A stretch of DNA of 64,000 nt from Carnobacterium funditum DSM 5970 (GTDB lineage Bacteria; Bacillota; Bacilli; Lactobacillales; Carnobacteriaceae), in the NCBI RefSeq assembly GCF_000744185.1, contig NZ_JQLL01000001.1, forward strand, positions 496,001 through 560,000, given 5' to 3'. Shown here piece by piece: positions 33,507-38,615 of this stretch; within the stretch, counting starts at the first letter, position 1, and the number at the start of each line of letters is the position of its first letter. Both the position numbers and the translations under genes were made by a program. The notes under the pieces were generated by a model. It made no database searches. It was not told the DNA's origin and was given only the letters and a program-made list of their open reading frames with translations.

Positions 33507-35557
33507 TTACAGTTCTTTCTCTAGCTGGATTTTCATCCATTTTTCAAGTTCTGCAAAGTGACTGTATATGAGAGCTTCTTCTGCAGCAAATTTTTCGAGC
33601 CGCTTTTGATAAACTTTTGTATCTATTAATTCTTTTTTTTCAATATTTGATACAATATTCATAATACCATCTTGTATTGTAACAAAACCTGCTTCAAAAA
33701 ACACGGAGATTATAAAAATGAGCATATTTTCTTTTAGTTTTAAATGTCCGGATAAAATTTTCGTTTTATGTCTTACGTCAATATCCATATGCGATGCAAT
33801 ATATTTAAAAACATGTGAGAATTGTATCCGACTCGGTATGCCCTCTAAATATACACTTTCTTGATTAAAGAAACTTACATAGATGTTAGAAGGTTCACTA
33901 TTTTGTAATAGCTCTCTTAATAATGTCAAGTTATCTGGACAATCGACTAAAATGAGTTTAGTTGTTTTCATTTCAAATTGCTTATTTTCTTTTTGGTTTG
34001 AAATCAAATGAGAATATCCAGTTACCGGTATTTTTTCTTGGTATTTATTATAATTCTTATCATTGAAAAAAACGTAGTCAGCACTAGGTAGTTGCCATAT
34101 ACTTGGTGAAACTTGGGTACTTCTTAAATCAAACAATTGCGTGCCTTTAACTACTAAGTCGTCTAACATCAGCTGAGGTTTCCTTAATCCATTCCATTCA
34201 TTGATATTCAGTTTACCTGTTATTGAAATTTCTGCTTCAGCTCCAATATTCTCAGCCATGGATCCAAGATGAAAGCCAATTGCATCTAGAGTTGCTTTCT
34301 CTTCAATTAAATTAAGTTTTAAATGTGTTTTTTCGCTACCGATTCTTTTAATTTCTTGAACTCGTACTTGCTCAAATAGAAAAACAGGTTTTGGATTTTC
34401 TGTTCCGAATGGAGCTAATTTTTGTAGTTCTTCGATTGCCTTTATGCTCACATCAGAAATGTGTAGTTTTTCATCAACAAAACAGGCGTTTTCTAATTGA
34501 TTGGGCCCTTCTTTTTGTTGCAAGAATGCATTCAATTCTGTTCTAAGGTTAGCTATGCTTTCAATTGGCAGAGTTAACCCGGCGGCCATTTGATGTCCTC
34601 CAAATTTCGTTATTAAATGATCAGTATCTTCTAAAGCATGAAACAAATGATACGTTGACGTACTCCTACCAGAACCTTTTGCATATCCTTTTTCATGATC
34701 AATGTTAAGAACAATAGCTGGTTTTCCAGTTGTTGCTACTATTTTACTAGCAACAATTCCTAATACACCCTCGTGCCATCCTTGTTTTGCTAAAATATAA
34801 ATGCCTTGGTCAGAATCTTCTTCTACCATTTCTAATGCTTCAGCAGTTATTCTCTTGACAATCGACTGTCTTTCACTATTTTTTACGTTTACCATTTCTG
34901 ATAAGCGTACGGCTTCTTCATCATCAAAAGTAGTCAACAATTCAACGGCAGGCGCAGCATCTCCTAAACGTCCAACAGCATTCAAACGTGGAGCTAAGGC
35001 GAAACCAATCGTTTCTTCATCTGCTTCATTTTGCTTGATACTTGCAACTTTACATAAAGCAATTAATCCTATTCTTTGTGATTCTTTCAATACAGCTAAG
35101 CCTTGCTTTACTAAAGCACGGTTTTCACCCGTTAAGCTGACTAAATCAGCAATTGTTCCTATAGCTACTAAATCAAGCATCTCTAAAGGTATTTCTCCTA
35201 GTAAGGCAGTAGCTAATTTGAAAGCCACACCTACTCCTGCTAAATTTTTGAAAGGATATTGGCCATTTGGATGTCTTGGATGAATTAAAGCATAAGCATC
35301 TGGCAAAGTACTTTGCAATTCATGGTGATCAGTGACTATCACATCAACTCCTAGCTCATTTGCTTTAGCAATAGCCTCATGACCCCCTACTCCATTGTCA
35401 CATGTTAAAATCAAGCCTGTTCCTGCTGAAATTAATTTTTCGAAGACCCTTGTGTTCGGTCCATATCCATCAGTAAAACGATTAGGAATATAATAATTAA
35501 CCTCTCCTCCTATCATTTCAATCGTTTCTTTTAAAACTGCAGTACTGGTAATCCCAT
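33507..35557 (-). CDS. recJ: single-stranded-DNA exonuclease RecJ, 3' exon (interrupted by a group II intron)
   Basis: Second part of recJ, a 5'-3' single-strand exonuclease of the DHH family used in recombination and mismatch repair. It begins with the last two bases of D95, then [10 protein letters not shown]. Downstream are VTDHHEL (the DHH motif), a DHHA1 region with [12 protein letters not shown], and the OB-like C-terminal part. Joined to 38333-38615 it makes 2334 bases, 777 codons plus stop, normal for RecJ (about 780). An apparent GTG start at 35603 lies inside the intron and is an artefact. It is followed by apt. Confidence 0.93.
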
Positions 35558-35606
35558 ATAGTGATAGGTAACCTTTTGATACTATCTCCAGGTTTTCCCC
35601 CACTCC

Positions 35607-35640
35607 ACACCGTGCGTGAGATTTTCACCTCACACGGCGT
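35607..35640 (-). ncRNA. group II intron domain V
   Basis: 34 nt on the minus strand: an 8-bp lower stem (ACGCCGTG with CACGGTGT less the bulge), a 2-nt CG bulge, a TGAG/CTCA upper stem and an 8-nt loop with GAAA. It begins ACGC, giving a CGC catalytic triad. This is the hallmark of a group II ribozyme. Confidence 0.92.
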
Positions 35641-35763
35641 TCCATCGAATTTATTTTTCCGCTTTTAGAGTTACTTTCTTGAATCAAGTTACAATTCGAT
35701 ATTACCAGCTATTATTCTGTACTTGTTCAACCTGTCCAAAAATTTCCCGTTCAATTGAAGTTC

Positions 35764-37581
35764 TTACATTAGTTTATCAATTGTTTTAGAATCTGTAGCA
35801 TGAATAAGTTTGTGAACTTGTTCAGTTACTAAGATTAAATTATCATAGGAATCATTTTGGCTTTTGAACCGTGGTTCAATATGATGACATCTAAGGTTAA
35901 CTGAGGTTAACATTTCTTGCGATATCTTACATTTGCCTTTTTGGGCTGAGTACAAAGATAAGCGATTGTCATTGTATTCCATGGTTCTTTCCTTTACAGG
36001 ATTTTCCATGATATGCCTCAACATAAATACATTTTCAAAAGATAGTTGGTTATGAATCAACTTCCTACCTTCTTCTGTACATTTGTTTACCTTCGTTTTC
36101 TTCATCATTGGATTCTTATGCTTTATATACCCGATGGGTAGTAAAGGCTGTTTCCTTATGAATCTGATTTGTTTACTTCGCCCATATTCCTTATTGATAA
36201 ACAGAGAGGCTATATGCCCCTCCTTTTTAATCCTCTTTGCCAATTTATGACTCTTGAACATTCCTTGCATTCTATACGCCATTAAACCTAAATCAAAAGA
36301 TATCATTGTTGCAATTCGGAAATACTGATGTATTCCGACAACCGTTGAGTTATACAATCCGATTTTTCTTACTTCATCGTTTGTACCCTTCGGGTATTTT
36401 ATTTGCTTAATGATTTCTCTCAACTTCGATTCAGTTCGATAAAATGCTTTATCAGATATGTGGCTTCTGACTATCCACCTATTACCTTTTGGAATGACTT
36501 TCATCTTAAAACCTAAGAACTCAGAGTATTCTGATTTGAGATTTACAATTTGGGACTTTTCTTCACTTATTTCTAAGTGCAATCTCTTTAAGAGCCAGTT
36601 CCTGCAAGCATAAAATATTTTTACCGCATCTGATTTATTCCTGCAAAATATCTTAAAATCATCAGCATATCTCACAACAAACATTTCTTTTAGATTGCTT
36701 TTTCTTAGCTCTTTATATTGATTCCCTTTATCGATACCCTTGCCTTCTTTTGTTCTATCAACTGGCATTACTGTTTTAGTTTTGACTTTCATCTGTTCCC
36801 ATTGGCTTGCTATCCACCAATCAAATTCATTTAGCACAATGTTACTCAATAACAGAGAAAGAATACCACCTTGCGGTGTTCCTTTATCGTTTTTAATCCT
36901 TGTGCCATCATTATATTCGACGGGCGCTTTAAGTATTTTACTCATTATGGAAATCAAATTTTTGTCTCTGATACCCAATGACCACATTTGTTTTAGAAGT
37001 TTGCTGTGAGATACATTATCAAAGAAACCCTTAATGTCTATATCAACAACATAATGTAAATGTTGCATTTGCATAAACCTGTAGCAATGTGCTATGGCAT
37101 GCTTTACAGAGCGGTTAGGTCTAAATCCATAACTGTGATTGTAAAACTTAGCTTCACAGATAGGTTCAAGAACCTGAAGAATCCTTTGTTGAATGAGTCT
37201 ATCCCAAATGGTTGGAATTCCTAACGGACGTGTTCTGCCGTCGGGCTTTGGAATCTCAATTCTTCGTACTGCTTTAGGATGATAGTTAGAAAACTTTTTC
37301 CTTATAACAGTTAGGTATTTTTACTCAGACATCTTGTTTATCTCTTTAAGCGTTCTCTTATCTACTCCAGGGGTATTACTACCCTTATTGTTTTTAATGT
37401 TTCTGTAGGCAAGAAGTAAATTGTTATCGGTAATCATATATTCCATCAGGTGATGAAATACTTTACCCTCCTTACTTTCACTATACAGACGGTCTGAAAT
37501 TTCCTGAGTATCATAATATTCAGCATTTCGTAACTTTTGTACTTTTAAGCCGGTATTATCTTTGTTCCTTGTTCGCCTCAT
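35764..37581 (-). pseudogene. intron-encoded reverse transcriptase/maturase with HNH domain, interrupted by one stop codon
   Basis: Intron-encoded protein of 605 codons that would help the intron splice and move. RT blocks are seen from about residue 55, including IPKPDGRTRPLGIPTIWDR, YGFRPNRS, GTPQGG and the active-site YADD (305-308). A maturase (X) region follows, then an HNH nuclease (CHHIEPRFKSQNDSYDNL). One in-frame TAA at 37321-37323 (codon 87) breaks it. The frame is otherwise open on both sides and no frameshift is needed. The ATG at 37581 lies 8 bases after GGGAGG. A sequencing error or suppression cannot be excluded. Confidence 0.88.
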
Positions 37582-38332
37582 AGTCATCGCCTCCCTTCAT
37601 CGGGGATTGATTCTATTAGTCTTACTCGAACCTATGAGTCTTCGTAAACTTAGCGAATTAATGAAAAATAAAATTCGACTCGAGCCTATCCCTCCACTAC
37701 TTATTATCGTAGCTTCATAGGTACTGTGGCTCTACTTTCACTTGGACTAATTAGCTTATTATTCTCTAACGAGATTTTCGTCTAAACTGCTTCATTTGCT
37801 GGTAAAAGCATCCACATCCCAAGTTTCCCACGTTCCGATTAAACTATCTCCTGCTATATATCTTTAGGTTTCTTCTATAGGCCGTTGCACTCGAATGCCC
37901 CCGTGAGGCAATATGGTATTTCATGACACCAGATTCTTACTTTACCACATGCAATGAGATTGACTTTTGGCGCAATCCCAACAACGCATTTCTACGTTTC
38001 CTATGTATCGACCCGTACATTCAAAGATTCGTCAGTTTCCTGTCAAGAAACATTCTAACCATGGATATTTTATGAGACCCCCAGCCTATAGGAAGCAGAA
38101 TCCACCTCTGGACTTTTTTCGTGTGAGATTTGATTCTCACTTACGGCTTCTCTCAGCTGTCTTCACCGAGCTTTACACTTTCGAAATTTCACCTTTTCTA
38201 AAGCATATCGGAGGATTAGGGATGTCGTTTCAGGGCGTTACCCCGTCATTCCAACATTCATTCAATCAGTTCTCCAGTCCTGTTATTGCTTCAGTCCTGT
38301 GTGTAAGTTTTTCGCTTACAAACGTGTCGCAC

Positions 38333-38615
38333 CTGCATCATAATCACCATAAACTGTGATGAGTTCACCATTTTCAATGGCACTCGTAATACGAGAAACA
38401 GCTTTGTCCATATCTTTTAAAAGATAGGGATCATGAATCCATGTATCATCAGGGGTAATAAAATCCTGTATTTTATCAACAGACTTTAAGCCTCTTTGAA
38501 GACAAAGTGAAATAAATAATGGCGTATAACTAGATTCAAGTTCTTTTTTTTCTTTATCATTTAAACTATCGAATGGTGTTTCTTTTACTTTCCATTTTTT
38601 TTGTACGTTTGACAA
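38333..38615 (-). CDS. recJ: RecJ, 5' exon
   Basis: Encodes residues 1-94 and the first base of codon 95. It ends ITVYGDYDA, the first part of the DYDADG metal-binding motif. The start is a TTG at 38615 with GGGAGTG upstream, and an extended -10 (TGGTATACT) lies about 25 bases further. Without splicing, translation runs into the intron and stops within a few codons, giving a useless ~99-residue peptide. The intron is therefore disruptive unless spliced. Confidence 0.9.

Follow-up and report, generated by a model that had tools for sequence, protein, structure and literature searches.

Group II Introns in Bacterial Genes

Homing group II introns whose intron-encoded proteins (IEPs) are of the RT-X-HNH type show Ll.LtrB-like behavior. 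Although uncommon, group II introns do occur in bacterial housekeeping genes, recA of Geobacillus being one instance. Chee and Takami reportedly described in 2005 such an intron in recA of Geobacillus kaustophilus, for which we know of no genus-wide and recurrent occupation of the site by IEP-less copies.

In the sections of a 2015 review considered here, ORF-less bacterial introns are described as nearly always accompanied by an IEP in trans, and C.te.I1 is the only exception named (PMC4424553). According to the parts of the two sources concerned with it, this intron of Clostridium tetani is ORF-less, has no IEP-related gene in its genome, and undergoes splicing in vivo as well as self-splicing in vitro (PMC3919590, PMC4424553). 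Its authors claim there that it is, to their knowledge, the first ORF-less bacterial intron to splice without an IEP in the genome (PMC3919590). In the relevant portion of a study carried out with E. coli, deletion of recJ is reported to bring the synthesis of full-length bottom strand in extracts for Ll.LtrB retrohoming down to 37%, while qPCR in that study gave no sign of a decrease (PMC3636086). Since RecJ is thus reported to affect some steps of Ll.LtrB retrohoming, an intron in recJ occupies a gene whose product may help the intron to move. Among the titles listed in searches of the open-licence literature, none concerned recJ group II introns, which does not imply absence from print, and the word recJ is absent from the main text of PMC8919778.

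A preliminary description of the recJ intron studied here had treated it as an oddity of a single genome. It belongs instead to a recJ-specific intron clade, and the same recJ codon is occupied in 30 genomes. From comparative sequence analysis, we consider it highly probable that a recJ-homing group II intron has repeatedly been degenerating to a splicing-only intron, with the production of RecJ dependent on ribozyme splicing.

Organization of the Interrupted recJ Gene

The window, by which we mean the whole 64,000-nucleotide stretch of Carnobacterium funditum DSM 5970 DNA that was analyzed, carries recJ in two exons on the minus strand:

33507..35557, (-), recJ exon 2, rest of the split codon plus 682 codons and the stop; DHH, DHHA1, RecJ OB and ssDNA-exonuclease C-terminal domains
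35558..38332, (-), group II intron of 2775 nt with 5' GTGCG and 3' AT; Rfam matches, and ends similar to those of other recJ introns
38333..38615, (-), recJ exon 1, TTG start, 94 codons and the first base of codon 95; homologous to the recJ N-terminus or exon 1 in relatives

The intron splits the codon of D95 after its first base, within the DYDADG codons, and leaves exons of 283 nt (exon 1) and 2051 nt (exon 2). Exact joining of the exons by computation gave 777 aa plus the stop, with DYDADG restored, and thus reproduced the intact RecJ that had been announced for removal of the 2775 bases. In the unspliced frame, a stop is met at the fifth codon past the split codon. The RecJ features include the DHH motifs, DHHA1, the OB fold and an equivalog score of 515.8 bits for exon 2 against TIGR00644 (cut-off 396.9). 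The housekeeping location noted earlier was supported. A second intact recJ elsewhere, which in the preliminary description would have meant a simply broken gene, was dropped as a candidate: the RecJ search of the window's genome (G000; 2.35 Mb in 2 contigs) found none, and the joined RecJ matched the two exons alone. Stretches of the small contig are similar to plasmids of Carnobacterium, Enterococcus, Desemzia and Vagococcus, covering at best 14% of a 12-kb query, which points to Lactobacillales, perhaps Carnobacteriaceae. The intron is also present in one copy, and recent spread inside this genome was dropped for that reason. Motif I of RecJ is not DYDADG everywhere, as it reads DYDTDG in the intron-bearing Lysinibacillus alkalisoli (L214/L008, G805) and DYDSDG in the intron-free G006 (L080).

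Ribozyme Core and Pairing With the Exons

The following elements were located in the intron and at the end of exon 1:

35560..35603, (-), domain VI, from the RF00029 alignment and fold
35607..35640, (-), domain V, 34 nt, from the RF00029 alignment and fold
37926..37932, (-), EBS1, CTGGTGT; against IBS1, 6 bp with one bulge or 5 bp without
38010..38013, (-), candidate EBS2, GGTC, in an 8-nt hairpin loop, picked by eye
38070..38274, (-), match to Rfam RF02004 (group II D1-D4-5), 174 bits, E 1.8e-39
38333..38338, (-), IBS1, last 6 nt of exon 1, ATGCAG
38342..38345, (-), candidate IBS2, GATT, picked by eye

The match to RF00029 (D5-D6; 62 bits, E 9e-10) terminates exactly at 35558, and the intron coordinates and GTGCG/AT ends first given for this locus were correct. 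Both Rfam matches lie far over cut-off, and a chance assembly of intron-like signals was dropped on their E-values. The last 98 nt of the intron fold 3.7 s.d. better than 200 shuffles (z -3.7), none of which equaled them. Together, the two Rfam matches and this fold bear out the splice-competent orientation and the foldable domains V and VI, and an intact ribozyme core is supported for the window intron. An A at 35565 in domain VI, 8 nt from the 3' end, is bulged in the fold as well as in the Rfam alignment and would be the branch point. The other 28 recJ introns likewise have GTGCG...AT ends, many of them having been found by patterns that require such ends.

The EBS1 loop was set by eye with the help of introns that have different exons. 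A set of 12 introns whose 5' ends had been defined by blastn yielded 11 loops, and 25 further loci yielded 9; the pairing was then scored in 34 related introns. EBS1 and IBS1 formed 181 of 204 pairs, against a shuffled mean of 121.5 (0 of 2000 shuffles as good). With 20 non-redundant cases, the figures were 108 of 120 pairs against 66.8 (0 of 5000). In most recJ introns, EBS1 has seven letters, and 13 of 14 attain 6 bp with IBS1 when one bulge is allowed. Without a bulge, the pairing is weaker in recJ introns than in the outgroup, with 3-6 versus 5-6 of 6 pairs. A first EBS1 candidate, TTGCAT, seemed a perfect fit in the window and in genus g3. It was dropped because these letters are part of a covarying helix (columns 418-423 with 483-488). 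Candidate EBS2 pairs with candidate IBS2 in 14 of 14 recJ introns, a count made without shuffle control. An EBS2 scan was rejected, having chosen a G-U-rich site for which the shuffle control was uninformative (4296 of 5000 as good). Of the 142 pairs predicted within the first 500 nt, 61 vary on both sides without loss of pairing (no shuffle control); the covariation counts of the consensus fold refer to sequences in two groups and not to events. The exon-intron pairs that this fold proposed near the 5' end were disbelieved.

The Same recJ Codon in Other Bacillota

In a sample of one genome per species, the same recJ codon was occupied in 30 genomes, of which 29 had both intron ends; G806 was omitted from the 29, its contig ending inside the intron, and G805 (= L008) and G935 (= L007) were each counted once. 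A RecJ search over 18 genomes of the window's family (f1) revealed the intron in eight, namely that of the window, all six genomes examined of genus g3, and G017. Apart from that of the window, these inserts are 767-896 nt long and contain both Rfam cores and no IEP. The empty-site comparison suggested for sister strains was run on family members, and the recJ site was uninterrupted in 10 of the 10 remaining f1 genomes, including the congeners G004-G007. In family f11 (lineage name Caryophanaceae), which includes Sporosarcina, a search with the junction pattern revealed carriers in 21 of 261 genomes, over 7 of 19 genera. The recJ 5' exon was found in all 21, and both exons with in-frame joining in 20, the contig of the last one ending inside the intron. 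One carrier, Bacillus sp. 522_BSPC, is a Bacillus.

Searching from the protein side, five of 67 loci with related IEPs were in recJ at the same codon (three Sporosarcina, Lysinibacillus alkalisoli and Bacillus sp. 522_BSPC), and these included the four most similar. The junction pattern was present in 8 of 395 genomes of the order, all from the window's family, and in 6 of 398 at class level, including a hit in G571 that was judged a chance match because its downstream bases and upstream frame are unlike intron or recJ. As such searches need the exact junction letters, these counts, that for f11 included, are lower bounds.

Homing and Inheritance

The IEP tree comprised 50 proteins, namely those of 47 among the 67 loci, with L071 represented by the C-terminal part, and those of the window, G003 and G734. 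The seven tested recJ-intron IEPs formed one side of a 100/100 branch. The recJ label changed once on this tree, against a shuffled mean of 6.7, with the non-recJ status of the other rows coming from a check of flanks that are short at some loci. Since the recJ IEPs form one clade, it appears that one specialized lineage colonized the site, rather than unrelated introns inserting by chance.

Within genus g3, the distances between introns grow with those between exons (Spearman 0.72 for 15 pairs that are non-independent), as would be expected from vertical inheritance. Between the Sporosarcina loci L007 and L009, the recJ exons differ by 25% and the compared intron parts by 1.2%, as predicted by recent horizontal homing. 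For the window, a recJ tree of 23 of 24 rows (G006, with its DYDSDG motif, is missing) put the gene among those of intron-free congeners, and the nearest sampled intron has 81% identity. As no near copy of the window intron was thus sampled, a recent arrival is not indicated. It may have come from an unsampled donor, or it may be old and have been lost in the sisters. The congeners G005 and G006, intron-free in recJ, have 10 and 7 RF00029 matches elsewhere (loci L106, L102 and others) and 9 and 7 RVT_1 matches; the window's genome has the recJ intron only.

Repeated Decay of the Intron-Encoded Protein

The IEP of the window is read on the same strand as recJ and falls into three parts:

35764..37320, (-), remaining IEP open frame, 518 codons, with an RT domain (RVT_1), a maturase region placed by position and an HNH-like C-terminus
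37321..37323, (-), in-frame TAA interrupting the IEP at codon 89
37324..37587, (-), IEP N-terminal 88 codons; RVT_N 20.6 bits, under the cut-off of 28.1

The IEP starts with the ATG at 37587, preceded by AGGGAGGCG, a ribosome-binding-like site. Its end is taken to be HNH-like from a weak match under cut-off together with a motif. The agreement that had been reported for the RT frame holds for the RT domain and 518 open codons, but not for the frame as a whole, since the TAA interrupts it. Mobile introns are recognized by an intact RT/maturase/endonuclease ORF in domain IV; in the window, this ORF is stopped at codon 89. The nonsense codon could be a sequencing error. A profile search of the window's genome gave no other RVT_1 match, leaving one interrupted IEP as its entire IEP content by this profile, and the recJ intron is its sole RF00029 group II intron match. 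With its IEP interrupted, the normal maturase route is probably impaired in this strain.

Among the 29 introns, 10 have an intact IEP (~638 codons), 8, window included, have one that is stopped or partly deleted, and 11, all of them under 1000 nt, have none; the IEP is hence broken or missing in 19 of 29. The intron tree requires at least seven changes between intact and lost IEP, an approximate number given that 11 of 26 inner branches are well supported. Two introns look partly degenerate themselves, that of G017 with a changed IBS1 and a 6-nt gap in the core alignment, and that of G771 with a long branch and an RF02004 score of 116 bits. In the recJ intron of G885 (L218), 282 bases separate two landmarks of the 5' part, as against 16 in its near relative G779; both Rfam cores and the open frame of recJ are nonetheless preserved.

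We then looked for maturases in 18 of the 19 IEP-defective genomes, those of f1 and f11, using one Pfam profile (RVT_1) per genome, plus one X/HNH query in f1. By the RVT_1 search, a group II maturase was undetected in 12 of the 18. Nine (G008, G009, G011, G012, G017, G761, G771, G819 and G950) gave no RVT_1 match, the genome of G761 being 90% complete. G013, G885 and G825 have one RT each, of defense type and far under the group II cut-off; these lone RTs (L180 1312-2718, L226 757-2175 and L225 187-1917, respectively) fit Drt2 in two cases and an RT-protease retron-like family in one. Other RTs were present in five genomes: G010 has three, one of which was classified and fits the group II model (350 bits, cut-off 300), and G768, G783, G792 and G796 have several that are unclassified. 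The window's genome has its own interrupted IEP only. At an E-value of 0.01, the X/HNH part of the IEP went unmatched in G017 and in all six g3 genomes, and across f1, G000 and G003 aside, this query gave one weak match (G002, E 0.001). In five of the six g3 genomes, the recJ intron was the only RF00029 match.

Another group II intron, distinct from the one in recJ and lacking a long ORF beside it, was seen in G017 (L177 3219-3317), G014 (L178 3264-3362, minus strand) and G015 (L179 3176-3274). It lies no more than a few kb from a thioredoxin-like gene, with a BsrC RNA match nearby in two of the three. G017, a carrier of this second ORF-less intron, is among the genomes without any RVT_1 match.

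Evidence for Splicing and Rival Explanations

Joining the exons leaves the recJ frame open over all available sequence in each of the 29 cases where both intron ends are present; in seven of them (G761, G769, G779, G784, G792, G919 and G946), that sequence covers only 297-428 codons of exon 2. Left unspliced, the frame runs into a stop after 5 or 14 codons in all 29. The dN/dS of recJ was 0.03-0.12 overall. It was 0.078-0.120 for the 15 pairs of six ORF-less g3 species, with dS up to 1.47, and 0.036-0.103 (13 pairs) and 0.033-0.061 (3 pairs) in f11, IEP-defective genomes included. The window compared with intron-free G005, G007 and G004 gave 0.094, 0.106 and 0.104, and the intron-free pair G005-G007 gave 0.110; low values in the window's own genome would also be expected had the intron arrived recently, the congeners G004-G007 being without it. 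Because the unspliced frame cannot make a whole RecJ, yet dN/dS is low, we infer that the introns are spliced. The comparative frames and dN/dS thus strongly imply splicing in the lineage, for which a simply broken recJ is unlikely. The pairs maintained in the first 500 nt and the EBS1-IBS1 pairing described above also speak for splicing. The dependence of recJ on ribozyme splicing proposed in the preliminary description stands in this comparative sense, although it had not reckoned with an interrupted IEP and a probably impaired maturase route. Its suggestion that the RecJ level is conditional on splicing is plausible.

For the window's strain itself, recJ could be simply disrupted, by a recent arrival of the intron whose maturase was then broken, so that splicing fails and the gene is becoming a pseudogene. 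Taken alone, the interrupted IEP and the lack of another RVT_1 match in that genome would favor a broken gene, as would the uninterrupted recJ of congeners G004-G007 and the general statement, in the part of the C. tetani study concerned, that bacterial group II introns need an IEP for splicing in vivo (PMC3919590). However, the exons show neither stop, frameshift nor raised dN/dS, and the seven other f1 carriers keep recJ open without any IEP, with low dN/dS in the six g3 species (G017 is outside the dN/dS set) and no maturase found in six of the seven. The window intron is also at most 81% identical to sampled introns, which does not indicate a recent arrival, an unsampled donor being possible. 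We therefore regard disruption as very improbable. A maturase could also act in trans, with the IEP of another group II intron, plasmid-borne or too divergent for the profile, splicing the recJ introns as in cyanobacterial ORF-less introns. Help in trans is the pattern given for ORF-less bacterial introns in the review sections considered (PMC4424553), and the group II RT of G010 (350 bits) and the unclassified RTs of G768, G783, G792 and G796 are candidates for it. This source of help is nevertheless rather unlikely for the clade, given that half of the 18 IEP-defective genomes lack any RVT_1 match, that three have only Drt2 or retron-protease-like RTs, that neither G017 nor any of the six g3 genomes gave an X/HNH match at E 0.01, and that RF00029 matched nothing but the recJ intron in the window's genome and in five of the six from g3.

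The intron might also be kept as a regulator, the efficiency of splicing, or reverse splicing of the lariat into spliced recJ mRNA, tuning RecJ with conditions. One site has been repeatedly occupied and the intron retained there, and Ll.LtrB is reported, in the part of the source concerned, to inhibit a host gene by targeting its mRNA (PMC6003770). Yet a low rate of precise loss would account for the retention equally well, and 10 of 18 f1 genomes do without the intron, making a regulatory role improbable.

A Probable Path From Homing Intron to Splicing-Only Intron

The reading we prefer is that of a homing intron degenerating to a splicing-only one. A recJ-specific clade of mobile introns would retrohome into the DYDADG codons in two groups of Bacilli, taken here as Lactobacillales and Bacillales, and the near-identical introns in divergent recJ suggest that copies with an intact IEP may still spread between species. 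Repeated decay or deletion of the IEP has left both the ribozyme and the exons of recJ intact. IEP-defective introns would lose autonomous homing and become splicing-only, the recJ pre-mRNA being spliced at EBS1-IBS1 by the intron RNA, presumably assisted by some host factor where no maturase remains. With its one nonsense codon, the window IEP would represent an early stage of decay, and the RecJ of this strain is very likely made only from ribozyme-spliced RNA, with little or no maturase help. We also think it fairly probable that, in at least one genus (six of six species examined) and independently in other Bacillota, a homing intron became a vertically inherited, maturase-free and obligatory intron of a core DNA-repair gene, the counterpart of an organellar splicing-only intron, the window's genome having been caught just after maturase loss.

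The recJ introns offer a graded natural series at one fixed site of one gene, with intact, stopped, partly deleted and absent IEPs as well as empty sites. The passage from selfish retroelement to obligate splicing-only intron, a proposed step toward spliceosomal introns, thereby becomes directly testable in bacteria, with natural ribozymes that apparently splice in cells without a maturase.

Comparison With Known Systems

The recA intron of G. kaustophilus resembles the recJ intron in being a group II intron that interrupts a housekeeping gene for DNA repair in a Bacillota species; the gene itself is a different one. With RT-X-HNH homing introns of the Ll.LtrB kind, the recJ introns share the layout of the IEP, EBS1-IBS1 pairing with the target and near-identical copies in divergent hosts; they differ in that their target is a conserved chromosomal housekeeping gene and that 19 of 29 copies are without an intact IEP. 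The likeness to C.te.I1, as described in the source sections used, is that of an ORF-less bacterial intron in a genome without an IEP-related gene, a situation matched by 12 of the 18 IEP-defective genomes searched, as far as RVT_1 shows. C.te.I1 is located there in a surface-layer protein gene with alternative splicing, whereas one product is expected from recJ. In the recJ clade, moreover, IEP loss recurs over many species that have IEP-bearing sisters at the same site, with splicing inferred. The clade adds many candidates for IEP-free splicing, in a core gene. As for organellar splicing-only introns, they are, in the review sections considered, likewise vertically kept, have lost their IEP and need ribozyme or host-assisted splicing for an important gene (PMC4424553). 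In contrast to these, the recJ introns reside on a bacterial chromosome and their core is mostly little degenerated.
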